Shown: positions 50,318 through 62,111 of the stretch, piece after piece
Layout: each line of letters opens with the position of its first letter
Numbering within the stretch: the stretch's first letter is position 1
NCBI RefSeq assembly: GCF_900890425.1
Contig: NZ_CAAHFG010000001.1
Location: 806,001 to 870,000 of the forward strand
DNA length: 64,000 nt
Reading direction: 5' to 3'
DNA from: Pontiella desulfatans
GTDB lineage: Bacteria > Verrucomicrobiota > Kiritimatiellia > Kiritimatiellales > Pontiellaceae
The notes under the pieces: generated by a model
Told to the model about the DNA's origin: nothing
Database searches by the model: none
What the model saw: the letters and a program-made list of their open reading frames with translations, nothing else
Translations under genes and position numbers: made by a program

Positions 50318-52105
50318 ATGGCATTAGAGAGGATCAAGGTCGAATTACCCACCGCCGACTACTATGAAGCCGAGGTGAAATGCCGTAATTCATGTCCGGT
50401 TAGGACGGATGCACGAGGCTATTTGATGGCCACCGTCGCCGGAAAGTATGAAGAAGCGTACGCCATTTCCCGCGCCACGAACCCGTTCGCCTCCATCTGC
50501 GGCAAGGTCTGCGGCGCCCCCTGCGAAAAGGGCTGCCGCCGTTCGGATGTGGACGAAGCTGTCGTCATCCGCAACATCAAAGGATACCTGACCGACAAGC
50601 ACGGCCCGGAAGCCGGGGATCTTAAAACCCCGCTGACCTATTCCATCGCCCCCGGTTCGCTTGAGCCGGAACTGAACGGAAAATCCGTTGGCATCATTGG
50701 CGGTGGATGCGCGGGCTACACCGCCGCGCACGACCTCGCCCGGCTGGGCTACAGCGTTACGGTTTATGAGCGCTGGGAAAAATCCGGCGGGCAGCTGGTG
50801 CAGGGCGTTCCCATCAACCGACTCTCCCGCAAGGTGGTGGCCGACGAACTCGCCTCCATCGAGCTGTTCGACAATATCGAAGTCAAGAATGGCGTCGATG
50901 TCGGCAAGGATATCACGTTCGCCGAGTTGGAGAAAAAACACGATGCGGTCTTCGTTGGTGTTGGCCTTGCAAAAGGGAAGAAAATCCCGTTGCCGGGAGC
51001 CGATCACGACGAGGTCCACATCGGCCTGGCCTTCCTGTTTGATTTCAACATGCGTGAAAAGTGGGATCTGAGCACCCGGCGATCGATCGTGATTGGTGGC
51101 GGCGACGTGGCGTTCGACGTTGCCCGTTCGGCCTTGCGCTGCGGTTCGCCGGAAGTGCAGCTGGCCTGCTTGGAGCGGGAGCATCTCAACGAAATGACCG
51201 GTTCGGTTGATGAACGCGAAGGCGGCCGCCGCGAAGGCGTGGTGATCAACGATGGCTGGGGACCGCGCGAGATTGTCGTTGAAAACGGCAAGATCAAGGG
51301 GTTGGTCGTCAGCAAGGTGATCCGCGTTTTTGATGAAGACGGAAAGTTTTCCCCGCAGATGGAAGAGGAAACCCGCCTGATCGAAGGCGATGCCGTTTTC
51401 TTCGCCGTGGGGCAGGGATCCGACCTCGCCTTCCTCGAAAACTCAGGCGTTGAAATGACGCCGCAGGGCTGGGTGAAGGTTGAAAACGAGGAAACGCTGC
51501 AGACCAGCAAACCGAACGTTTTTGTCGGCGGCGACATTGCCCATGGGCCGAAGCTGTTCATCGATGCGGTGGCCTCCGGTAGCAAGGCGGCGCAGGGCAT
51601 CCACGCCTACATTTCCGGAAGCAAGCCCTTGTCGCTCAAACGCAAGCTCACCTTTACCGATCTACCGGACTATGGACGCGGTTCCGTCTATGTGGACGAA
51701 GAACGCGAGGAGCGCGAAGAGCTTCCCGTCAAGACCGCCGAACAGCCCGAGTTGAACACGACGGTCGAATATCCCGAAAAAGAGGCGAAAGAGCAGTCCG
51801 CACGCTGCCTCGAATGCCACATCCACCCGACGTTCGAGGGCGACATCTGCATCCTCTGCGGCGGTTGCGTGGATGTCTGCCCGTCCTATTGCCTTTCCAT
51901 GAAGACGGTCGATCGCGTCGATGGCGGCGAAGAGTTGAAGGTGCTGGCCGAAATGGAATTTGGCAGCATGGAAGTGGCGGAAGCGGAAGGGTCGGTCATG
52001 CTGTTCGATCCGCTCAAGTGCATTCGTTGCGGCATGTGCGCGCAAAAGTGCCCGACGGGTGCCTGCAAAATGTCGGTGAATAGTTTCGAGGACTGCTTTG
52101 CATGA
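50318..52105 (+). CDS. GltD-like FAD/NAD(P) oxidoreductase with C-terminal ferredoxin domains
   Basis: A 595-residue flavoprotein. The N-terminal Cys-rich helical domain (CRNSCPVRTDARGYL, CGKVCGAPCEKGCRR) is that of glutamate synthase small subunit-type proteins. FAD site: GIIGGGCAGYTAAHDLARLG (about residue 125). NAD(P) site: VIGGGDVAFDVARSALRCG (about 260). VGGDIAHGPKL closes the FAD fold. The C-terminal tail has two cluster motifs, CILCGGCVDVCP and CIRCGMCAQKCP. It probably moves electrons between NAD(P)H and ferredoxin or quinone. GGAGG precedes the ATG. The next gene overlaps its stop (ATGA), which ties it to the cbb3/bc cluster. Confidence 0.88.
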   Translation: MALERIKVELPTADYYEAEVKCRNSCPVRTDARGYLMATVAGKYEEAYAISRATNPFASICGKVCGAPCEKGCRRSDVDEAVVIRNIKGYLTDKHGPEAGDLKTPLTYSIAPGSLEPELNGKSVGIIGGGCAGYTAAHDLARLGYSVTVYERWEKSGGQLVQGVPINRLSRKVVADELASIELFDNIEVKNGVDVGKDITFAELEKKHDAVFVGVGLAKGKKIPLPGADHDEVHIGLAFLFDFNMREKWDLSTRRSIVIGGGDVAFDVARSALRCGSPEVQLACLEREHLNEMTGSVDEREGGRREGVVINDGWGPREIVVENGKIKGLVVSKVIRVFDEDGKFSPQMEEETRLIEGDAVFFAVGQGSDLAFLENSGVEMTPQGWVKVENEETLQTSKPNVFVGGDIAHGPKLFIDAVASGSKAAQGIHAYISGSKPLSLKRKLTFTDLPDYGRGSVYVDEEREEREELPVKTAEQPELNTTVEYPEKEAKEQSARCLECHIHPTFEGDICILCGGCVDVCPSYCLSMKTVDRVDGGEELKVLAEMEFGSMEVAEAEGSVMLFDPLKCIRCGMCAQKCPTGACKMSVNSFEDCFA

Positions 52106-52275
52106 TTTGGCTGACGATCATTCTGTTAATCACGACAACCCTGCTGGGCGGCATCTTTTTCGTGTTGTTCCGCTGGGCGGTGAAGGATGGCCAGTTCGAC
52201 GATCCCGAAGAGGCGAAGTATGTGATTTTCCGGGAAGATGAAGCAGGGAAGGGCGTTAAGCCACAAAGGCACTAA
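52102..52275 (+). CDS. ccoS: cbb3-type oxidase assembly protein CcoS
   Basis: A 57-residue protein with one transmembrane helix (MIWLTIILLITTTLLGGIFF) followed by RWAVKDGQFDDPEEAKYVIF, the hallmark FxWAvk-GQFDD of CcoS/FixS. CcoS is needed for heme/copper insertion into cbb3 oxidase. The start overlaps the stop of the flavoprotein gene. Its last codons (KPQRH) run into a CACAAAGGCACTAA repeat unit, so the extreme C-terminus seems derived from an intergenic palindrome fragment. Confidence 0.85.
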   Translation: MIWLTIILLITTTLLGGIFFVLFRWAVKDGQFDDPEEAKYVIFREDEAGKGVKPQRH

Positions 52276-52311
52276 CGGCACTAAGCCGGGGTTCAATTTG
52301 GAGGATAGGAT

Positions 52312-52788
52312 ATGGCGAATAAGGAAAAGAAAGACGGTAGGAGTCGCCGCGAGCTGATTACATTGGGATCGGCCTTCGGCTTGATGGGGATTGCGGGTTT
52401 GGGATCGGCCGGGGCGTTGTTTAAATACATGATGCCCGTGGTTTCCTATGGTACACCGCAAAAATTCCTGGTTCCGGTCGAAGATCTGCCGGATGTCGGG
52501 GATGAGATGATTTTCGACGACATGAAGGTTGTGGTCCGTCGGCAGACCGATAAGGAAGTTGCCGCCATCTCCTTGGTCTGCACGCACCTAGGCTGCACGG
52601 TCAACCGCGTGGAGACCGGTTTCCTGTGCCCGTGCCACGGTTCGCAATACGATTCCGACGGCATCGTGGTCGGTGGCCCCGCCCCGAAAACGCTGCCTTG
52701 GCTGGATATCAAGATCGTTCCCGGCGGGCAGATCGAGATCGATACGGGCACCTCGCTGCCGGAAAACAGTTTCTTCGAAGTCGCTTAA
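52312..52788 (+). CDS. Rieske iron-sulfur protein of a bc-type complex
   Basis: A 158-residue membrane-anchored protein. A twin-arginine-like start ([11 protein letters not shown]) and a hydrophobic helix ([18 protein letters not shown]) hold it in the membrane. The [2Fe-2S] ligands are in CTHLGC (about residue 90) and CPCHGS (about 108), followed by [10 protein letters not shown]. It takes electrons from quinol in complex III and passes them to cytochrome c. It lies directly before cytochrome b. Confidence 0.93.
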
Positions 52789-52801
52789 CAAGGGGAAGTG
52801 G

Positions 52802-54145
52802 ATGAATGAACTAATTCAACAGGCCAAGGAGTTCGGGAACAAGCTCTACTACTCGATCTTCCGGCATCGATTCGACAACACGGGGCTGACCAAGTCCAAG
52901 ATCATGTTCAGCAATGTGCTGCTGCATATCCAGCCCGTGAAAATCCATAAGCGCACGGTCAAGTTCAAAACCACGATGGGCCTGGGGCTGATTACCTTCT
53001 ATCTGTTCCTGATCCTGGCCCTGACCGGGATTTTGCTGATGTTCCACTATGTGCCATCGACCGCCATCGGCCCCGACGGGTTGCCGGACGCCTACAGCCG
53101 CATGCTCAACCTGCGCTCGAACGTCTTCTGGGGCGGCTTCATCCGCAACATGCACCGCTGGGCGGCGCACGGCATGGTGGCCTTCGTGGCGCTGCACATG
53201 TTGCGCGTCTATCTCGCCGGCGCGCACCGCGGCGGCCGCGAATTCAACTGGGTGATCGGCTGCATCCTCGGCCTCTTGACCGTCTTCCTGTCCTATACCG
53301 GCTATCTGCTGCCGTGGGACCAGCTGGCCTTCTGGGGCGTCAAGGTCGGCACCGAGATCGCCAAGATCGCACCTGGCGGCGCGTTGATCCGCGGCATCCT
53401 GCTGGGCGACACCGATGTCGGCGGCGAGGCGCTCATCCGCTTCTACGTTTTGCACGTCGCCGTTTTGCCGGCCGTGATGGGCTTCCTGATCGCCGTCCAC
53501 TTTTTCCGCATCCGCAAGGATGGCGGCCTGGCCAAGCCGGCGGATACCTCGAAGGAAAAACAGATTCCCGATGAGGAGTTCGGCGATGTGAAAAACAACT
53601 CCGTTTTCAAGACGGCCCGCAGCTACAAGCTGGTGGAGATCGTCAAGGGCAAGGAGCCCAAGGTGAACGAGGAGGTCGATCAAATGATGTTTGCCTGGCC
53701 CAAGCTGATCGTGCGCGAATTGATCGTGCTGCTTGGCGTGGTGGCTGTGCTAAGCGCCATCTCGGTTTTATTCGATGCGCCGCTCGAAGGGCCGGCCGAC
53801 CCGAACCACCCGACCAACCCGTCGAAGGCCCCGTGGTATTTCCTCGGCCTGCAAGAGCTGGTTTCCTACCACGGCTTCATCGGCGGCATTGTCATCCCCG
53901 GCATCCTGGCCGGCGGCGTGATGGTGCTTCCCTACATTGAAATGTTTTTCGAGACGTTCACCAAAACCTGGAAAACCAACGTTCCGGGCGTTTGGTTCGC
54001 CCGCGAGCGTGGATTGCTCAACGTGCTCTTTATCGGCATGTATCTGTTCATGTTGACGCTGATCATTATCGGGGTCTATTTCCGCGGCGAAAACTGGGAC
54101 GTAATCTATCCGTGGGTGCATGACGTGTCGGGGGGAGGTCACTAA
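52802..54145 (+). CDS. cytochrome b of a bc-type complex
   Basis: A 447-residue integral membrane protein combining the two heme-bearing halves. The N-terminal part (GLGLITFYLFLILALTGILL, RNMHRWAAHGMVAFVALHMLR with heme His pairs, YTGYLLPWDQLAFWGVKVG) is cytochrome b6-like. After a charged insert (about residues 240-290) comes the C-terminal part with the quinol-site signature PWYFLGLQEL (about 343). GGGGAAGTGG is the ribosome site. The stop overlaps the next start (TAATG). Confidence 0.93.
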   Translation: MNELIQQAKEFGNKLYYSIFRHRFDNTGLTKSKIMFSNVLLHIQPVKIHKRTVKFKTTMGLGLITFYLFLILALTGILLMFHYVPSTAIGPDGLPDAYSRMLNLRSNVFWGGFIRNMHRWAAHGMVAFVALHMLRVYLAGAHRGGREFNWVIGCILGLLTVFLSYTGYLLPWDQLAFWGVKVGTEIAKIAPGGALIRGILLGDTDVGGEALIRFYVLHVAVLPAVMGFLIAVHFFRIRKDGGLAKPADTSKEKQIPDEEFGDVKNNSVFKTARSYKLVEIVKGKEPKVNEEVDQMMFAWPKLIVRELIVLLGVVAVLSAISVLFDAPLEGPADPNHPTNPSKAPWYFLGLQELVSYHGFIGGIVIPGILAGGVMVLPYIEMFFETFTKTWKTNVPGVWFARERGLLNVLFIGMYLFMLTLIIIGVYFRGENWDVIYPWVHDVSGGGH

Positions 54146-55899
54146 TGATTAAGGACTATCGCATACTTGCCGCATTGGCTTTCGCCGGCTTCATCTTCTT
54201 CGCCCTTTCGATGATGAAGTCGATGGATCTGGAATTCGTGAAGCACCAGAAGGCCTACTATGCCGAGCTGGGCGAAGAGTTTCCGGGGATGGAATACAAG
54301 CAGATCAACGTCAAGACGTCGGGAGGCATCATGATCGACCGTTGCCAGACGTGCCACGTCGGGGCATCGAATCCGGATGCCTCCGGATTTGCGCAACCCT
54401 TGACCACACATCCGCCGATCGTGCCCGGAGCGGAAGAGGATCCGCACGACTTTGCCAAGATCGGCTGCACCGTCTGCCACGATGGAAACGGTCGCGCCGT
54501 GGAGATCCACGATGCCCATGGCGAATACCATGGCTGGCCGGCCCCGTTGCTTTCCGGGCAGCTGTCGCAGGCCAACTGCGTCCGGTGCCATGCCATGGAG
54601 AGCGGCCATCTGGCCGGCGCCGAGCTCTACGAAAAGGGCCGCACCCTCTTCCTTGAAAAGGCCTGCTGGGGCTGCCATACGATCGAAGGGATCTCCTCCT
54701 CGTCGCAGGCCCCCGAGCTGACCGATGCGGGCGGCAAGTTTTCGTATGGATACCTGGTCGAGTCGATCGTCGACCCTAAGGCCAACGACGTAAACTCGAA
54801 GATGCCGTTGTTCGACTGGGCGCACGACGAAGAGACCGTTGCCGCCATTGCAACCTATTTGAAAGGGCAGCAGAAAGAACGCCTTCGTTCCGCCGAGAGC
54901 GCTCCGATCGGCTACATCAAGCCGAAGTCCGAGCTGGCCCGGATCACCGAGCCCAGCGTGGCGGCCGGCATGAGCCTCTTCGCGGGCGCGCCCTTCGAGG
55001 GTTCCGTGGCCAAGGGCGGCTGCGTCAACTGCCATGCCATCCGCAATTCCGATGGCAACCTGGCCGGCGGCAACATCGGCCCGGAGCTGACGTGGACGAT
55101 CCGCCAGCGCGGGCGCGACTATGTCAAGGAGCACATCGTCAATTCGCGTTCGCACGTGGCCGATTCAATCATGCCGACCTTCAAGGACTACAACGATGCC
55201 GAACTCGAAAGCGTGGTTTCGTATCTCTCCACGCTCGACTATGAGCTGGGCGAGGCCGACGGGCAAAAGCTCTACGACACCTATTGCGTCTCCTGCCACG
55301 GCGACGACCTGAACGGACGCGGAAAGCTGGCCCCCATGCTCGACCCATTGCCGCGCGACTTCAGCAAGGGCCGGTTCGTCAGCTCCTATGAAACGCGCTT
55401 CACGGATTCGATCATGGAAGGTGTGGGCGGAACCTCGATGCCCGCCTGGAAAAACATCCTGAGCGATGAACAGGTTGGAACGCTGGTGGCCTTCATCAAG
55501 GAAAAGAGCCATGCCGCCGAGAAATCCTACACGCGCATGCAGGTCGCGTTGCCGAAGACCGGCGACCTGGAACGGCTCGACTTCAAGGGCAAGGGAACGC
55601 TGCTGGAAGCGGGCGATCCGGAAGAGGGCTTCGAGGCCTTCCAGAAATATTGCACCTCCTGCCATGGCAAGCTCGCCAACGGCAAGGGGCCGAACGCCTA
55701 CACGTTGGTTCATCCGTTGCCGCGCAACCTGATCAACCAGGATTTCATGAACCAAGTGGCCGTCTCGGATGAGCGCCTCTACCAGTCGATCCTGCTGGGC
55801 GTGCCGGATACCTCGATGCCGCCGCACGACCACCTGAAAGACCAGACCATTCTGGATATCATCGCCTTTATCCGGGCCAACACCGAGGAAGCCGAATAA
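54145..55899 (+). CDS. heptaheme c-type cytochrome, membrane-anchored
   Basis: A 584-residue protein with an N-terminal anchor helix (ILAALAFAGFIFFALSMM) and seven CxxCH heme sites: CQTCH, CTVCH, CVRCH, CWGCH, CVNCH, CVSCH and CTSCH. The first three lie in a compact multiheme part (about residues 60-155), the fourth and fifth in class I-like domains, and the last two in mono-heme domains of the CcoP kind (CVSCHGDDLNGRG, CTSCHGKLANGKG). It is coupled on both sides, with cytochrome b before and ccoN after. It probably replaces both cytochrome c1 and CcoP, carrying electrons from the bc complex to the oxidase. Confidence 0.88.
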   Translation: MIKDYRILAALAFAGFIFFALSMMKSMDLEFVKHQKAYYAELGEEFPGMEYKQINVKTSGGIMIDRCQTCHVGASNPDASGFAQPLTTHPPIVPGAEEDPHDFAKIGCTVCHDGNGRAVEIHDAHGEYHGWPAPLLSGQLSQANCVRCHAMESGHLAGAELYEKGRTLFLEKACWGCHTIEGISSSSQAPELTDAGGKFSYGYLVESIVDPKANDVNSKMPLFDWAHDEETVAAIATYLKGQQKERLRSAESAPIGYIKPKSELARITEPSVAAGMSLFAGAPFEGSVAKGGCVNCHAIRNSDGNLAGGNIGPELTWTIRQRGRDYVKEHIVNSRSHVADSIMPTFKDYNDAELESVVSYLSTLDYELGEADGQKLYDTYCVSCHGDDLNGRGKLAPMLDPLPRDFSKGRFVSSYETRFTDSIMEGVGGTSMPAWKNILSDEQVGTLVAFIKEKSHAAEKSYTRMQVALPKTGDLERLDFKGKGTLLEAGDPEEGFEAFQKYCTSCHGKLANGKGPNAYTLVHPLPRNLINQDFMNQVAVSDERLYQSILLGVPDTSMPPHDHLKDQTILDIIAFIRANTEEAE

Positions 55900-57251
55900 T
55901 GAAACAAGATACTGCTGCAAAAACGATGGTCATTGCATCGTGCGTCTACTTCGGTTTGGCGCTCACGATGGGAATCCTGACGGCGCTGAAGTTCGTGGTG
56001 CCGACGGTCGGGGAGATCGAATACCTATCGATGCCGCGCCTGCGCATGTTGCACACGAACATCAACCTGTTCGGTTGGCTGCTGCAGGCCAACATGGGCA
56101 TCCTGTTCTGGATCCTGCCGCGCATCCTGCACACCCGGCTCTTCTCCGAAAAGCTTGGGATGGCCATGGGCGTGCTCTACAACCTGACGGTGCTCGGTGG
56201 TTTCGCCGCCATTGTGATGGGCAACGTGAAGAACGTCGAGTATGGCGAAATCCCGGCACCGTTCGACTACCTGATCGCGGTCTGCTGGGTGATGTTCGCC
56301 ATCAACGTGTTCGGTACGGTGGCCATCCGGAAGGTGAAATACCTCTACGTCACGGTTTGGTACACGCTGGGCGCGGTGATCTGGACGACGTTCGTCTACA
56401 TCACGGGCAACATGCTCAGCCAGATGCCGATGGTCACCGGCATCAACCAGGCCAACCTGATCTGGTTCTACGTGCACAACGCCGTCGGTCTCATCTTTAC
56501 CCCGCTGGGTGTGGCGATCGCCTACTACATGATCCCGAAGCAGCTCGACACCCCGATCTATTCGCACAAGCTTTCGATGGTCGGCTTCTGGGTGATCTCC
56601 TTCGTCTATGTTTGGACGGGGGCGCACCACATGCTCAACGGCCCCATCTCGAACTGGTTGCAAACCGTGGCCAGCGTCTTTTCGTTCAGCCTCATCATTC
56701 CGGTGATGGCGGTGGTGACCAACTTTTTCGGAACCTTTGCCACGGCGCCGCGCCATACGCGCATGAAGGGGCCGATCCCCAAGCTGTTGATGATGGGCAC
56801 GGTCTACTATATCTTCACCTGCCTCCAGGGGCCCTTCCAGTCGATCCGCTCGGTGAGCGAAATCGTGAGCAAGACCGACTGGGTGGTCGGCCACGCGCAC
56901 ATGGCGTTGTTCGGCGCATTTTCATACTATGCCATGGCGGGCATCTGCTACGTGGCCCCGAAAATGGCCGGCCGCAAGCTCTATTCCGAAAAGCTCGGCG
57001 ATCTCCAGTTCTGGCTGATGACGCTCGCCAGCATTCCGTTCTTCGCCGTCCTTTGGATTGGTGGGGTGATCCAGGGCTATGCCTGGCTCAACCCGGAAAA
57101 CACGTTTGTGGAAACGTTGGAAGCGCTCAAGCATGCGCACTGGATGCGCTTCTCGACCGGCAGTGTTATTTTCATTGCCTACTTCCTGTTCCTGTACAAC
57201 ATCCTAATGACATTCTTCGGGAAATATCCTGCTGAAGAGGGGGCGGAATAA
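55899..57251 (+). CDS. ccoN: cbb3-type cytochrome c oxidase subunit I
   Basis: The 450-residue catalytic subunit with about 12 membrane helices. Heme b and b3 / CuB histidines are visible in LRMLHTNINLFGW (His52), WFYVHNAVGLIF, WTGAHHMLNGPISNW and VVGHAHMALFGAFSYY. The enzyme reduces oxygen to water with high affinity and pumps protons. The overlap with the previous stop and with the ccoO start shows tight coupling. Confidence 0.95.
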   Translation: MKQDTAAKTMVIASCVYFGLALTMGILTALKFVVPTVGEIEYLSMPRLRMLHTNINLFGWLLQANMGILFWILPRILHTRLFSEKLGMAMGVLYNLTVLGGFAAIVMGNVKNVEYGEIPAPFDYLIAVCWVMFAINVFGTVAIRKVKYLYVTVWYTLGAVIWTTFVYITGNMLSQMPMVTGINQANLIWFYVHNAVGLIFTPLGVAIAYYMIPKQLDTPIYSHKLSMVGFWVISFVYVWTGAHHMLNGPISNWLQTVASVFSFSLIIPVMAVVTNFFGTFATAPRHTRMKGPIPKLLMMGTVYYIFTCLQGPFQSIRSVSEIVSKTDWVVGHAHMALFGAFSYYAMAGICYVAPKMAGRKLYSEKLGDLQFWLMTLASIPFFAVLWIGGVIQGYAWLNPENTFVETLEALKHAHWMRFSTGSVIFIAYFLFLYNILMTFFGKYPAEEGAE

Positions 57252-57835
57252 TGAAAATCGATGTCGAAAAAAGCCTGATCTGGACGGCCGCAGGCGCGTT
57301 CATCCTCTTTGCCATCGGCGCGGTGCTCACCACCATTGTTCCGCCGATCGTCGACAAGACGCTGTGGACGTCCGAATACGATGTGCATGAATACACCGAG
57401 CAGGAGCAGCGCGGGATCGAAATCTACAAGCGCGAGGGGTGCGTCTATTGCCACACCCAGCAGATTCGCCAGCTCGATTCCGACCGCCGCCGCTATGGCT
57501 GGCGGCTGGTGGAGGCGCCCGACTCCGAGGCCTGGGAATATGTGAACGATAAATACCATTTCCTCGGCACCAAGCGCAGCGGGCCCGACCTGGCGCGCGT
57601 GGGGGGGAAATATTCGTCCGAGTGGCACTGGGCCCACTTCAAGAACCCGCGCGACATGGGCGAAAAGTTTCCCGACCGCAAAGGGATCTATGAAAAGGTT
57701 TCCATCATGCCCGCGTTCGACTATCTCAGCGACGAGGAGATCAAGGATCTCACCGCCTACATCCAGACGCTCGGCCGCAACAAGGATTGGCGTGTCGATA
57801 AAGACGGCAACCCGCTCAACGACTACGAGCAGTAA
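57251..57835 (+). CDS. ccoO: cbb3-type cytochrome c oxidase subunit II
   Basis: A 194-residue mono-heme cytochrome: N-terminal anchor (WTAAGAFILFAIGAVLTTIVP), heme site EGCVYCHTQQIRQLDSD (about residue 62), GTKRSGPDLARVGGKYS and IMPAFDYLSDEEI with the distal Met ligand. All are standard CcoO features. It follows ccoN with an ATG overlapping its stop (TAATG). Confidence 0.94.
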   Translation: MKIDVEKSLIWTAAGAFILFAIGAVLTTIVPPIVDKTLWTSEYDVHEYTEQEQRGIEIYKREGCVYCHTQQIRQLDSDRRRYGWRLVEAPDSEAWEYVNDKYHFLGTKRSGPDLARVGGKYSSEWHWAHFKNPRDMGEKFPDRKGIYEKVSIMPAFDYLSDEEIKDLTAYIQTLGRNKDWRVDKDGNPLNDYEQ

Positions 57836-57855: not shown

Positions 57856-57942
57856 AACCGCGAAAGAACGCAAGGAACGCAAAGAAACCATCTGGAATTA
57901 TTTCTTGCTCTGCTTTTGCGTTCTCTGCGTTCTTTCGCGGTT
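57856..57942. repeat. intergenic palindrome, CGAAAGAACGCAAGG family
   Basis: AACCGCGAAAGAACGCAAGG plus AACGCAAAG pairs with the mirrored arm 28 bp later, with two or three mismatches. It lies inside the cbb3 operon, after ccoO. Short open frames across it (KPRKNARNAKK) are artefacts of the repeat. Confidence 0.78.
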
Positions 57943-57970: not shown

Positions 57971-58111
57971 ATGGGAGAGAAACAATACGAACTCGAGTCC
58001 ACCACCGAGATCAAGCAAGGCCATGCCGATATCGGCAAGTTCAACATTGCCGTCGAGGTGGTCCTGACGATTGTCTGCATCGTCTATCTGATCCTCAACT
58101 TCAATCCTTAA
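57971..58111 (+). CDS. 46-residue single-pass membrane protein in the cbb3 cluster
   Basis: MGEKQYELESTTEIKQGHAD followed by a C-terminal helix (FNIAVEVVLTIVCIVYLILNF). GGAGG precedes the ATG. Size and place recall CcoQ or other small oxidase subunits, but no sequence motif of CcoQ is seen. I treat it as a possible small subunit. Confidence 0.65.
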   Translation: MGEKQYELESTTEIKQGHADIGKFNIAVEVVLTIVCIVYLILNFNP

Positions 58112-58113
58112 GA

Positions 58114-58186
58114 TTTGGCAACGCATGCATGGAAGGCCGCGAATGTTCGTTCGTTGAGATTCGTTGCTTTCCATTCATGCGTTGCA
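58114..58186. repeat. palindromic element, GCAACGCATG family
   Basis: TTTGGCAACGCATGCATGGA... and ...TCCATTCATGCGTTGCAA are inverted copies, with GTTCGTTCGTTGAGATTCGTTGC between. Related to the 30-bp inverted-repeat element downstream of kinase 1. Confidence 0.7.
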
Positions 58187-58192
58187 ATCAAT

Positions 58193-58954
58193 ATGGCTAA
58201 GTCCAAATACACGAACCGGAGACGGATCATCCAGGCAGTGGCGATGATCATGCTCCTGAGCATCCCGCTCCGCTTGGTTTGCTTTGATTTGGAGAATGAA
58301 TGCATCCGCGTCTTCGGCGCGCGCTTTGGTCTCTCCACCATGTTCTATCCGTTGTTCACGATCGTGGCGCTGATCCTTTTCGTTGTGTTCCGGGGGATGA
58401 GCAAGGGTCGGATCTTCTGCTCGCACCTCTGCCCGATGCATCTCTTTTTGGAGATCGTCAATAGCCCGAAAAACAAAACGGCGGCTTCGCGTCCGGCAAA
58501 GGTTTGGGGCTGGTCGGTCTTTTTTGCGGTGCTCTCCGTCGAGGTCATCCTGTCGTTTTTCCAACCGTTGGATAACCAGCTCCGGCTGATCGCCTCCGGG
58601 CACTTGCCCATCATCGGGATTGCATCCGCGCTGTTCCTCGGCTTCCTGGGCCTGTTTGTGCACTACCAGGAGCACTTCTGCAAGAAGGGCTGCCCCTACG
58701 CACTGATCCAGATGCTGCTGCAGTCCGACACCACGCGCTACATGGAATTCGCCAACCCCGAAAAAACCTGCACCAATTGCCGGGGCTGCGACGATGTCTG
58801 CCCAATGCTGTTGCGCGCCCGTTTCGAGAGCAAAGGCACCGACTGCACCAACTGCAACCTCTGCGCCGAGGCCTGCACCTCCGAGCTCGGCGAAGGAAAC
58901 ACCCTCTTCCTCCTCACCGATCCACAGGTTGAGAGTGGGGAAGCCGGGCGTTGA
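58193..58954 (+). CDS. polyferredoxin-like membrane protein (CcoG/NapH-like)
   Basis: A 253-residue protein with four membrane helices (AVAMIMLLSIPLRLVCF; FTIVALILFVVF; SVFFAVLSVEVILSFF; IIGIASALFLGFLGLFVHY). It has CxxxCP motifs (FCSHLCPMH, CKKGCPYA) and two C-terminal [4Fe-4S] motifs (CTNCRGCDDVCP, CTNCNLCAEACT). Such proteins, including CcoG, reduce copper or pass electrons during cbb3 assembly. I put the start after the palindromic element; the longer frame through that element is not credible. Confidence 0.82.
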   Translation: MAKSKYTNRRRIIQAVAMIMLLSIPLRLVCFDLENECIRVFGARFGLSTMFYPLFTIVALILFVVFRGMSKGRIFCSHLCPMHLFLEIVNSPKNKTAASRPAKVWGWSVFFAVLSVEVILSFFQPLDNQLRLIASGHLPIIGIASALFLGFLGLFVHYQEHFCKKGCPYALIQMLLQSDTTRYMEFANPEKTCTNCRGCDDVCPMLLRARFESKGTDCTNCNLCAEACTSELGEGNTLFLLTDPQVESGEAGR

Positions 58955-59038: not shown

Positions 59039-59719
59039 ATGAAAGAACTCATTGCCGCCATCATGCTAGGAGCCGGTTTGGGCTGGGTCGCCATTCCACA
59101 TTGCTACGCCATGTGCGGACCCCTGCATATTTCCGTCTGTGCGCTTCATCGAGAGAAAAGCTTTAAGGCGTTGTCGCTGTTCAACCTTGGTCGGATTGTT
59201 GGCTATACGCTGGCCGGGTTCCTGTTTGGCGCCTTTGGCGAATTCGTCAACATTGGCCCGGCGCACTTTTGTTGCCAGCAAGGCCAGTATCCATTGCGCG
59301 GCGCATTGCTTTCGTTGCTGTTTCCCGGTGTCATGATGTTTTTCATCGCGTTCTATGCCTTCCGGAAAAAGGGACTGAAGGCCCCCAAGACCAACTGGAT
59401 GTCGAAGCTCTTTAGCGGCAGTTTGGGCAAGCTGACGGTCGGCGGCGTCTGTTCGTCGCTGATCCCTTGCGGCATGCTCTACGCCGCCTATGCCATGGCG
59501 GTCGGACAGGGGAGCTGGTGGAAAGGCGGCGGCTTCATGTTCGCCTTCGTCGTCACCCAGACCTTCGTCATGCAGCTCGGCATTTCCCTCGGTCGCTTGG
59601 TCGACAAGAAATGGGGCGCCCGCTTCGAAAAGGCCTTCCCCTGGATCTGTTTGGTTATCGGTGTTGTCTATTGCGTCTTGTTTGTCCTCAAGCTCATTCC
59701 TGCCGAGGCGACGGGATAA
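59039..59719 (+). CDS. TauE/SafE-like (DsbD_2) membrane protein, probable cbb3 biogenesis factor
   Basis: A 226-residue protein with about six helices. HCYAMCGPLHISVC near residue 22 is the conserved H-C-x2-M-C-G-P motif of this group, and VCSSLIPCGMLYAAYAMA mirrors it in the second half. Members found next to CcoI ATPases (often named CcoH/'sulfite exporter TauE/SafE family') are linked with copper delivery to cbb3 oxidase. That role fits here but is inferred. Confidence 0.82.
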   Translation: MKELIAAIMLGAGLGWVAIPHCYAMCGPLHISVCALHREKSFKALSLFNLGRIVGYTLAGFLFGAFGEFVNIGPAHFCCQQGQYPLRGALLSLLFPGVMMFFIAFYAFRKKGLKAPKTNWMSKLFSGSLGKLTVGGVCSSLIPCGMLYAAYAMAVGQGSWWKGGGFMFAFVVTQTFVMQLGISLGRLVDKKWGARFEKAFPWICLVIGVVYCVLFVLKLIPAEATG

Positions 59720-59724
59720 TTTAC

Positions 59725-59793
59725 ACCACGAAGGCTCTAAGTACACGAAGAATTCAGCTTTGTGCAACTTGGTGACCTTCGTGTCTTTGTGGT
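59725..59793. repeat. intergenic palindrome, ACCACGAAG family
   Basis: ACCACGAAG...ACACGAAG pairs with CTTCGTGTCTTTGTGGT. It fills the gap before the copper ATPase gene and leaves that gene with a weak ribosome site. Confidence 0.75.
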
Positions 59794-59801
59794 TAGAAAA
59801 A

Positions 59802-62111
59802 ATGGCGGATCGTTGCATAGTTTGTAATCGGAGTGTTCCCGGCGGGGAAGGCGAGTTTTGCTGCCCGGGCTGCGCGGCGGTCTACACGATCGTCGGCAAG
59901 ATGGGGCTGGATGGCTCCGAGCGCGACGAGCGCATTGCCCAGCTGCTCGAGGGCGTCTTTCCCGGAGGGGAGGAAGCCGATGCCGAGCAAGCCGAAATCG
60001 AAAATGGACAGGAACTCTGTTTCCTCGTCGGCGGCATGGTGTGCCCCGCCTGCTCGTGGCTGGTGCACAACAGCCTCGGGAAGCTCAACGGCGTGGGGAA
60101 CGTCAACCTCAACTTTATCGCCGAAACCTGCACGCTCACCTACGACCCGATGAAGATCGGCAAGGACGACATCCATTCGAACGTCGAAAGACTCGGCTAT
60201 AAATACTACGAGGGCGAGGATGCCAGGCGCGATGGTTTCGACTATTTCCGCTTCGGCGCCGGCTGGTTCTTTGCGCTCAACAACATGATGATCTCGTTCG
60301 TGGTCTATTCCGCCGAGACCTGGGATGTCCCCTTTGCCATGCAGCTGGTCTGCTCGATCCTGCTCGCCGTCTTCGGCACACTCGTTCCGCTCTATGCCGC
60401 CCGCACCACCATGATCTATGGCTTCCGCCAAATCATGATGCGCCAATACCGCATGGAGAGCCTCGTGGTGCTCTCCACCACGGCGGCGTGGATCTATTCG
60501 GTCTATTCCATGGTCACCGGCGATTTCCACCGGCTCTATTTCGATGTCGTGACGCTCCTGTTGATGCTCATCGAAACCGGCAACCTGATCTCCGGCTCGT
60601 TCTATAAAAAGCTCAGCCGCCGCGTCAGCTCCCTCTCGTGGCAGTTGCCGAAAAAGGCGCGGGTTGAAAGCATCGATGTTGATGAGGATTATGCGGCGGT
60701 TGAGGATCTGAGCCCGGGGCAGGAGTTCCTCGTGAAGCGCGGCGAGTTTGTTCCGACCGACGGCATCCTGATGGCTCCGGCCGAGTTCGATTTCAGCCTG
60801 ATCACCGGCGAGTCGCACGGCGTTTCGCTGGAGCAGGGGCACTATGTCGGCGCCGGGGCCAAGCTGCTTTCCGAGGATGCGCGTCTTTCCGTTCCGGCAT
60901 CCGGCCAGAGCAACCTCATCAAAAAGATTGTCGAAAGCACCATCGAAGCCTTCAATACCCGCAAGGAGCAACTTTCGTTCGGCGACCGCATCAGCCAATA
61001 CTTCGTCCCCATCGTGGTCGGCGTTGCCCTGGTGGTGTTGTTCGGCAACCTCGTCATTGGCGACCGCGGCGACGCGATCATCCGCATGCTGAGCGTGTTG
61101 ATCGTCGCCTGTCCCTGCGCATTCGGGATCGCCGAGCCGCTGGTGCTCACCGCCGCCATCGAAAAGGTGCGCGGCTTAGGCATCCAGATCTTCAATGGCA
61201 CCGTGCTGGCGCTCAAGCCGGCGGTGGCGGTCTTCGATAAAACCGGTACGCTCACGCGCGGCGCACCCGAAGTGCACAAGGTGGTTTGGCTGGTTGAAAA
61301 GAACCAGAAGCAGCTCGACATCCTGGCCTCGCTCGAAAACGGCATCGAGCATCCGATTGCCCGTGCGTTGGCGCTGGTTGGAACGCCGTACCCGGTGGCC
61401 GACCGCACCATCGCCCGTACCGTGGTTTCCGCCAAGGTGGACGGAAAGCACTGGCTGGCCGGCAGTGCCGACCTGTTTCCGGATGTCGGCATTCCTCCCG
61501 ATCTGAAGGAGTCGACCATCGTCATGTTTGGCGATGCCGAGCGCTGCCATTGCATTGTTGGCCTCAAGGACACCGTGCGCGATGAGTCGAAGCAATTGGT
61601 GGCCGATCTCAAGGCGCAGGGGGTGAAATCGTACATTTTCTCGGGCGACCGCAAGGCGGTGGTCGAACAGGTGGCCGGCGAGCTGGGCATTGCCGACTTC
61701 CATGGCGAAATGGGCAGTACCGACAAGCAACGCGAGATTGCCGCGCTTCAGGCGCAGGGCAAGGCCGTGTTGATGGTGGGAGACGGCATCAACGACGCCC
61801 AGGCCCTGGCCGCGGCCGACTTCGGCCTCGCGGTGTTCTCCGGGCAAATCCCCGCCAAGATGAGTGCCGACGGCGTCTTCATGGTCCCCGAAATCGGCAA
61901 GCTGTGCGATCTCCCCTTCATGCAGCGCAAGGTGCGCCACAAGATCCGCCTCAACTATGGCTGGGCCTTTCTCTACAACATCGTCGGCATGTTCCTCGCG
62001 GGGGTGGGTTGGCTTTCGCCCAAATATTGCGCCGTCGGGATGGTCTTCTCCAACCTCGTCGTCATCTGGAACTCCATGCATGGCATGGCGCTCCCCGGGC
62101 GCAAGGCGTAA
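59802..62111 (+). CDS. ccoI: heavy-metal (copper) P1B-type ATPase, CcoI-like
   Basis: A 769-residue copper pump. The N-terminus has the CcoI-type Cys patch (FCCPGCAAVYTIV, residues 20-32) and a metal-binding domain with MVCPACSW (about 78). Then come LITGESH (about 330), the membrane metal site CPCAFG (about 434), the phosphorylation site DKTGTLTRG (about 477), HP loop EHPIARAL, and GDGINDAQAL (about 660). CcoI/FixI-type ATPases supply copper for the cbb3 active site. The ATG directly follows a palindrome and no clear ribosome site is seen. Confidence 0.9.
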   Translation: MADRCIVCNRSVPGGEGEFCCPGCAAVYTIVGKMGLDGSERDERIAQLLEGVFPGGEEADAEQAEIENGQELCFLVGGMVCPACSWLVHNSLGKLNGVGNVNLNFIAETCTLTYDPMKIGKDDIHSNVERLGYKYYEGEDARRDGFDYFRFGAGWFFALNNMMISFVVYSAETWDVPFAMQLVCSILLAVFGTLVPLYAARTTMIYGFRQIMMRQYRMESLVVLSTTAAWIYSVYSMVTGDFHRLYFDVVTLLLMLIETGNLISGSFYKKLSRRVSSLSWQLPKKARVESIDVDEDYAAVEDLSPGQEFLVKRGEFVPTDGILMAPAEFDFSLITGESHGVSLEQGHYVGAGAKLLSEDARLSVPASGQSNLIKKIVESTIEAFNTRKEQLSFGDRISQYFVPIVVGVALVVLFGNLVIGDRGDAIIRMLSVLIVACPCAFGIAEPLVLTAAIEKVRGLGIQIFNGTVLALKPAVAVFDKTGTLTRGAPEVHKVVWLVEKNQKQLDILASLENGIEHPIARALALVGTPYPVADRTIARTVVSAKVDGKHWLAGSADLFPDVGIPPDLKESTIVMFGDAERCHCIVGLKDTVRDESKQLVADLKAQGVKSYIFSGDRKAVVEQVAGELGIADFHGEMGSTDKQREIAALQAQGKAVLMVGDGINDAQALAAADFGLAVFSGQIPAKMSADGVFMVPEIGKLCDLPFMQRKVRHKIRLNYGWAFLYNIVGMFLAGVGWLSPKYCAVGMVFSNLVVIWNSMHGMALPGRKA

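Follow-up and report, generated by a model that had tools for sequence, protein, structure and literature searches.

A stretch of 64,000 nucleotides from the genome of the anaerobic marine bacterium Pontiella desulfatans (contig NZ_CAAHFG010000001.1, positions 806,001 to 870,000; hereafter the window, whose numbering is used for all coordinates) carries an operon in which genes for a quinol-oxidising complex and for the core of a cbb3-type oxidase lie on either side of a gene for a seven-heme cytochrome c. Five genes form one run on the + strand and encode a Rieske [2Fe-2S] protein (52312..52788), a cytochrome b (52802..54145), the heptaheme cytochrome (54145..55899), the catalytic oxidase subunit CcoN (55899..57251), and the monoheme subunit CcoO (57251..57835). 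Overlaps of 1 bp (TAATG) occur at three junctions, namely cytochrome b/heptaheme, heptaheme/ccoN, and ccoN/ccoO. These overlaps, together with domain matches, confirm the original prediction for this DNA, which placed the five genes in one mostly overlapping run. However, that gene list missed two additional genes in the same interval, both also on the + strand: one for a GltD/NfnA-like FAD oxidoreductase (50318..52105), which opens the operon, and ccoS (52102..52275).

Architecture of the heptaheme cytochrome

The heptaheme cytochrome is a membrane-anchored protein of 584 amino acids with seven CXXCH motifs. Its N terminus forms one membrane helix. The first three hemes follow; they lie close together, have invariant His residues in their vicinity, and are probably bis-His-ligated. 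Hemes 4 to 7 reside in class-I domains, where M220, M343, M432 and M558 are the expected Met ligands. All seven hemes and these four Met residues are invariant in nine full-length homologues, and we infer Met ligation of hemes 4 to 7 from this pattern.

The protein is a fusion of two units: a pentaheme (54145..55240, with three probably bis-His and two class-I hemes) that partners the bc complex, and a diheme unit (55252..55896) that is specific to the oxidase. This conclusion draws on two natural arrangements. In MED670 (locus L072), two genes with a 1-bp overlap encode a 376-amino-acid five-heme protein and a 242-amino-acid two-heme protein that has a signal-like leader. The boundary between the genes falls after heme 5 and before heme 6, and thus the junction of the functional halves is marked in nature. 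A sequencing frameshift is disfavoured as an explanation for this split because the frame for the diheme protein possesses a start of its own, a signal-like leader and a TAATG overlap. Furthermore, stand-alone Rieske/b complexes from other families share the five-heme core, either alone or extended by one or five domains (5, 6 and 10 hemes), and have no ccoNO genes.

Two decaheme relatives of the bc unit (L049:3967-9289 and L053:4050-9569) adjoin a gene for a NapA/Fdh-like molybdoenzyme, and L049 also carries a NapG-like protein. Because of these neighbours, the bc front end seems to be interchangeable and coupled to different terminal enzymes.

The last two heme domains had initially been described as resembling CcoP. 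This holds in part, since heme domain 6 exhibits weak CcoP similarity. However, the best match of the diheme half is Kustc0457 of Kuenenia (PDB 6h5l; profile 5e-14, fold 1.2e-6), and the membrane anchor and FixP_N domain of CcoP are absent from this half. CcoP and QcrC chains come next in the profile search, over part of the length. In the fold search, which used a predicted model with a mean predicted local distance difference test (pLDDT) score of 68, actinobacterial QcrC is next and no CcoP chain is present among the 50 fold matches listed. Hence, when we call the diheme half 'CcoP-like', the term refers to its position and probable function; descent from CcoP is unproven.

The oxidase core and its accessory genes

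CcoN (PF00115, 1.8e-77) retains its full set of heme and CuB ligands. Residues H52, H193, Y237, H243, H244, H332 and H334 align with those of PDB 3mk7 and are invariant wherever aligned, a set that covers the ligands of low-spin heme b and heme b3, the CuB His residues, and the cross-link Tyr237. CcoO (PF02433, 1.6e-34; 3mk7_B, 6.8e-22) carries its heme motif, CVYCH, at residue 64 and has an invariant M153. In a tree, the CcoN proteins linked to the heptaheme (17 of 17 tips) group as one monophyletic clade with support 1.0, and a long stem leads to this clade. Residue 310 is Gln in all 16 aligned heptaheme-linked proteins but Glu in the 19 other alignable CcoN sequences of the phylum and in 3mk7 (E323). 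This substitution, in an organism that grows anaerobically, could be taken to mean that CcoNO acts on NO or another substrate instead of O2. Such a role is very improbable given that all heme and CuB ligands and Tyr237 are kept as in O2 reductases, and that cbb3-type maturation genes accompany ccoNO.

The first of these maturation genes, ccoS, encodes a 57-amino-acid cbb3 assembly protein (TIGR00847, 4.9e-9, over the cut-off; FixS, 3.6e-12). The others lie downstream of ccoO on the + strand and encode a CcoG/NapH-like ferredoxin membrane protein (58193..58954; TIGR02163, 1.4e-13, and TIGR02745, 1.3e-11, both under the equivalog cut-off), a membrane protein of the DsbD_2 biogenesis family (59039..59719; PF13386, 5.6e-26), and a CcoI-like P1B Cu-transporting ATPase (59802..62111; TIGR01525, 2.9e-109, over this general cut-off only). 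At the position expected for CcoQ is a 46-amino-acid protein with one transmembrane segment (57971..58111), which is kept in congeners and has no family match. Imperfect inverted repeats lie between the operon genes at 57856-57942 (28-nt arms, 93% complementary) and 58118-58185 (27-nt arms, 85%), and a third look-alike at about 59724-59795 was spotted by eye. No FNR-like site (TTGAY-N4-RTCAA) upstream of the operon was found in the window or in the related loci with upstream sequence.

The quinol-oxidising module

The quinol-oxidising module was originally taken for a bc complex. Its Rieske protein and cytochrome b are indeed present, although the module is not a plain bc1 complex but a b6-like complex with a GltD-like NAD(H) module. 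The Rieske protein (PF00355, 7.4e-13) carries CTHLGC and CPCHGSQY motifs. The latter is found in all oxidase-linked forms shown, and stand-alone forms have Phe at the Tyr position. According to published measurements, the Ser/Tyr pair raises the potential of the cluster (PMC12954380). Cytochrome b (PF13631/PF00033) is encoded in one piece and has cytochrome b6 as its best PDB matches, and its four heme-ligand residues H118, H132, H218 and H233 are invariant. The PEWY motif is replaced by APWY, as expected for a menaquinol enzyme. Menaquinones are made by Pontiella (PMC7356697).

Two other features of cytochrome b bear on its heme content. At the column of b6 Cys35, the residue that binds heme cN, Gly is present in 24 of 24 aligned proteins. 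His42 is likewise invariant in all 24 and is 196 residues from an Arg-Lys pair, compared to 204 in both Kuenenia proteins, whose sequences were outside the alignment. We make no claim that His42 corresponds to Kuenenia His43/His62, the residues associated with a bridging heme b at the dimer interface, because this spacing differs.

The FAD oxidoreductase that opens the operon has 595 amino acids, with an Fe-S region at its N terminus and two [4Fe-4S] clusters at its C terminus, and is the putative NAD(H) module. It matches PF07992, PF14691 and Fer4_7, as well as PRK12771 below the cut-off. Both its Cys pattern and a Glu in the nucleotide site are invariant. NADPH-specific GltD/NfnL enzymes carry Arg at the position of this Glu, which hints that the subunit may use NADH rather than NADPH.

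Conservation and genomic context

The full heptaheme gene was found in the eight genomes of the genus, including that of P. desulfatans, and in one genome of another family among 289 genomes of the phylum searched. A scan of GTDB genomes yielded 19 heptaheme loci, including some in metagenome-assembled genomes (MAGs) labelled Chitinivibrionales, Bdellovibrionales and Lentisphaerae. The FAD protein precedes the heptaheme block and ccoN follows it wherever the contig reaches that far. All congeners, as well as MAGs classified in other phyla, have the genes in this same order, and the arrangement is therefore not due to chance. In addition, the bc genes and the oxidase genes have strongly correlated pairwise identities (rho 0.92 for cytochrome b against ccoN, 136 pairs), and therefore the block travels as a unit.

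Absences from the P. desulfatans genome (8.66 Mb, 95% completeness) were assessed with family searches. The genome encodes one heme-copper oxidase (COX1). It has no match to cytochrome c1 (PF02167), and no match to CcoP (TIGR00782) over the cut-off. Finding a gene for either protein had been set beforehand as the result that would overturn the earlier reading in which one cytochrome links the two complexes, and neither was detected in the run or in the genome. Beyond the heptaheme, class-I cytochrome c domains scored over the family cut-off only in two proteins on contig 5, which are similar to each other and sugar-dehydrogenase-like. A separate observation is that L051:6288-7751 and L051:9870-10718 encode near-identical cytochrome c/sugar-dehydrogenase-like proteins, one far shorter than the other. 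The same region also has two similar radical-SAM-like genes, and a duplication is likely.

A similar picture emerges from the relatives. FixP-type CcoP is missing from all 19 heptaheme genomes, where the single CcoP-profile match (genome G301) is to an 878-amino-acid frame of which only the heme part is covered. In most of these genomes the linked CcoN is the sole heme-copper oxidase. Among 241 genomes from the phylum, 45 have a FixP-type CcoP, whereas no genome of the genus does. Three genomes in which the bc unit is stand-alone (G155, G093 and G187) also have a FixP-type CcoP. The earlier proposal that one protein acts in place of both c1 and CcoP is thus supported by the absence of both from the genome and by the lack of FixP-type CcoP among the 19 relatives.

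A proposed directly wired menaquinol:O2 chain

We propose that the product of the operon is a menaquinol:O2 oxidoreductase with direct wiring, and we assign this reading a probability of roughly 0.68. In this scheme, the b6-like Rieske/cytochrome b complex would oxidise menaquinol, and electrons would pass from the Rieske cluster to the membrane-anchored pentaheme half of the cytochrome, with its three probably bis-His hemes and two His/Met class-I domains. The diheme half, occupying the place of CcoP, would then transfer the electrons to CcoO and on to the heme b and heme b3-CuB centre of CcoN, where O2 would be reduced. The oxidase would be matured by the CcoS, CcoG-like, DsbD_2 and CcoI-like proteins. 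By analogy with what has been proposed for the complexes of anammox bacteria, the FAD/Fe-S subunit would dock from the cytoplasm and let electrons move between NAD(H) and the hemes of cytochrome b.

Genetic evidence supports the direct wiring well, and physical assembly into a supercomplex is suggested by gene order, gene fusion and co-inheritance. Several considerations weigh against the directly wired chain. Neither the profile search nor the fold search supports a specific CcoP identity for the last two heme domains, and an AlphaFold2 model of the full-length heptaheme was poor (pLDDT 52) and was not used. Moreover, the genome also encodes a bd oxidase and membrane subunits of Nqr/Rnf-type complexes, so the operon need not be the main oxygen route.

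Alternatively, the genes might specify co-regulated but separate complexes, with the heptaheme serving only as the c subunit of the Rieske/b complex and docking transiently with free CcoNO, without a stable supercomplex. The penta-, hexa- and decaheme relatives do serve Rieske/b complexes that lack ccoNO, so the ancestral home of the cytochrome is the bc complex, and the diheme of MED670 is a separate and probably exported protein. However, the extra diheme was seen in ccoNO-linked loci only, none of which is accompanied by a FixP-type CcoP, so the oxidase probably needs the heptaheme as a subunit. We consider separate complexes unlikely.

The direction of electron flow through the FAD/Fe-S subunit gives rise to two variants of the directly wired chain, both compatible with it. 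In one, the system would be an NADH:O2 oxidase that disposes of fermentation reductant and oxygen, with electrons moving from NADH via the FAD/Fe-S subunit and b hemes to menaquinone, and then via the Rieske protein and heptaheme to O2. The position of the FAD subunit at the start of the operon in every locus retaining that end is consistent with this function, as are the absence of complex I NuoH from the genome and the reduced state in which gradient cultures keep their medium. The invariant Glu discussed above also favours NADH as the donor, on the basis of family knowledge. Conversely, the Nqr/Rnf-type genes can already pass electrons from NADH to menaquinone, and the authors describing the anammox homologues call the NADH-oxidising direction wasteful (PMC12954380). 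This variant is a tentative possibility.

In the other variant, the module would bifurcate, splitting the electrons of menaquinol between the Rieske/heptaheme branch to O2 and the low-potential b hemes to NAD+, such that NADH is made at the expense of oxygen reduction. The subunit kit matches that of Kuste4569-4574 and Kustd1480-1485, where bifurcation has been proposed, and the Rieske protein has the high-potential Ser/Tyr pair. These similarities are offset by the missing heme cN Cys, by the uncertain match to the bridging-heme-b residues (His42 is invariant, but the Arg-Lys spacing differs), and by the fact that NADH is seldom short in a fermenter. We therefore regard bifurcation as doubtful. 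The broader proposal that NAD(H), menaquinone and O2 are connected in one joint machine, in which a bifurcating or NADH-fed Rieske/b module is hard-wired via the seven-heme protein to a CcoP-less cbb3 oxidase, is likewise offered with caution. If correct, it would be the first oxygen-linked representative of the anammox-type NAD(P)-coupled Rieske/b complexes.

Physiological implications

High-affinity oxygen respiration had been called unexpected for a mainly anaerobic organism of this lineage, which is not wholly the case. The description of Pontiella lists cydAB and ccoNOP, and reports that growth is confined to the reduced zone and that gradient cultures enlarge this zone (PMC7356697). Strain F21 is oxidase-positive and strain F1 is oxidase-negative (PMC7356697). 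High-affinity oxygen reduction is therefore already claimed for the genus, and the hard-wired architecture is the new part. In the literature searched, which did not extend to subscription papers, we found no specific description of this architecture or of a CcoP-less cbb3 oxidase. The operon might allow an anaerobe that otherwise ferments to remove O2 or to respire microaerobically. If the proposed chain is correct, it could account for oxygen removal by a so-called obligate anaerobe.

Comparison with known systems

A canonical bc1 complex is defined by cytochrome c1 (PF02167), which the Pontiella genome lacks; a multiheme c is found in place of c1 or cytochrome f. With the C-family CcoNOQP oxidases the operon shares CcoN with all of its ligands, CcoO, CcoS, and CcoG-like and CcoI-like proteins. 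It differs in that FixP_N/CcoP is absent and substituted by the diheme unit, the identity of CcoQ is uncertain, and Glu323 is replaced by Gln. The closest match of that diheme unit, Kustc0457 (PDB 6h5l), has the HAO-like Kustc0458 as its partner, whereas the Pontiella diheme is partnered with CcoNO.

In the actinobacterial bcc-aa3 III2-IV2 supercomplex, electrons reach the oxidase straight from the bc complex through its c subunit, the QcrC diheme bridge, with no need for a soluble cytochrome c, and the same would apply in Pontiella. The Pontiella oxidase is of the cbb3 rather than the aa3 type, the c subunit has seven hemes, and the joint assembly is predicted from genes. An engineered supercomplex in R. 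capsulatus is held together by a c1-CcoP fusion (PMC7876108), a single polypeptide that likewise combines cytochrome domains of the bc side with those of the oxidase side. Canonical c1 and CcoP were the parts joined in that laboratory construct, whereas the Pontiella protein is natural and built from other modules. It would thus represent a natural counterpart of a fusion designed to keep bc1-cbb3 supercomplexes intact.

The bc part of the operon is closest in design to the two anammox Rieske/b complexes with an NAD(P) oxidoreductase (Kuste4569-4574 and Kustd1480-1485; PMC12954380). Shared features include a Rieske protein, a b6-like cytochrome b, a multiheme c, and a GltD-like FAD/Fe-S subunit, again in a menaquinone organism. 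Bifurcation has been put forward as a route to NAD(P)H in the anammox complexes, and one of the two from Kuenenia still lacks a suggested driving reaction (PMC12954380). If the wiring described here is correct, NAD(P)-coupled complexes of this type would gain a defined and easily assayed electron sink in O2. Furthermore, the gene for the partner enzyme adjoins the bc genes in cultivable bacteria, and the bifurcation question thereby becomes testable. The anammox complexes have b6 and subunit IV as separate genes and an HAO-like or unknown enzyme as partner, whereas in Pontiella cytochrome b is a single polypeptide without the heme cN Cys, and a cbb3 oxidase core takes the partner role.

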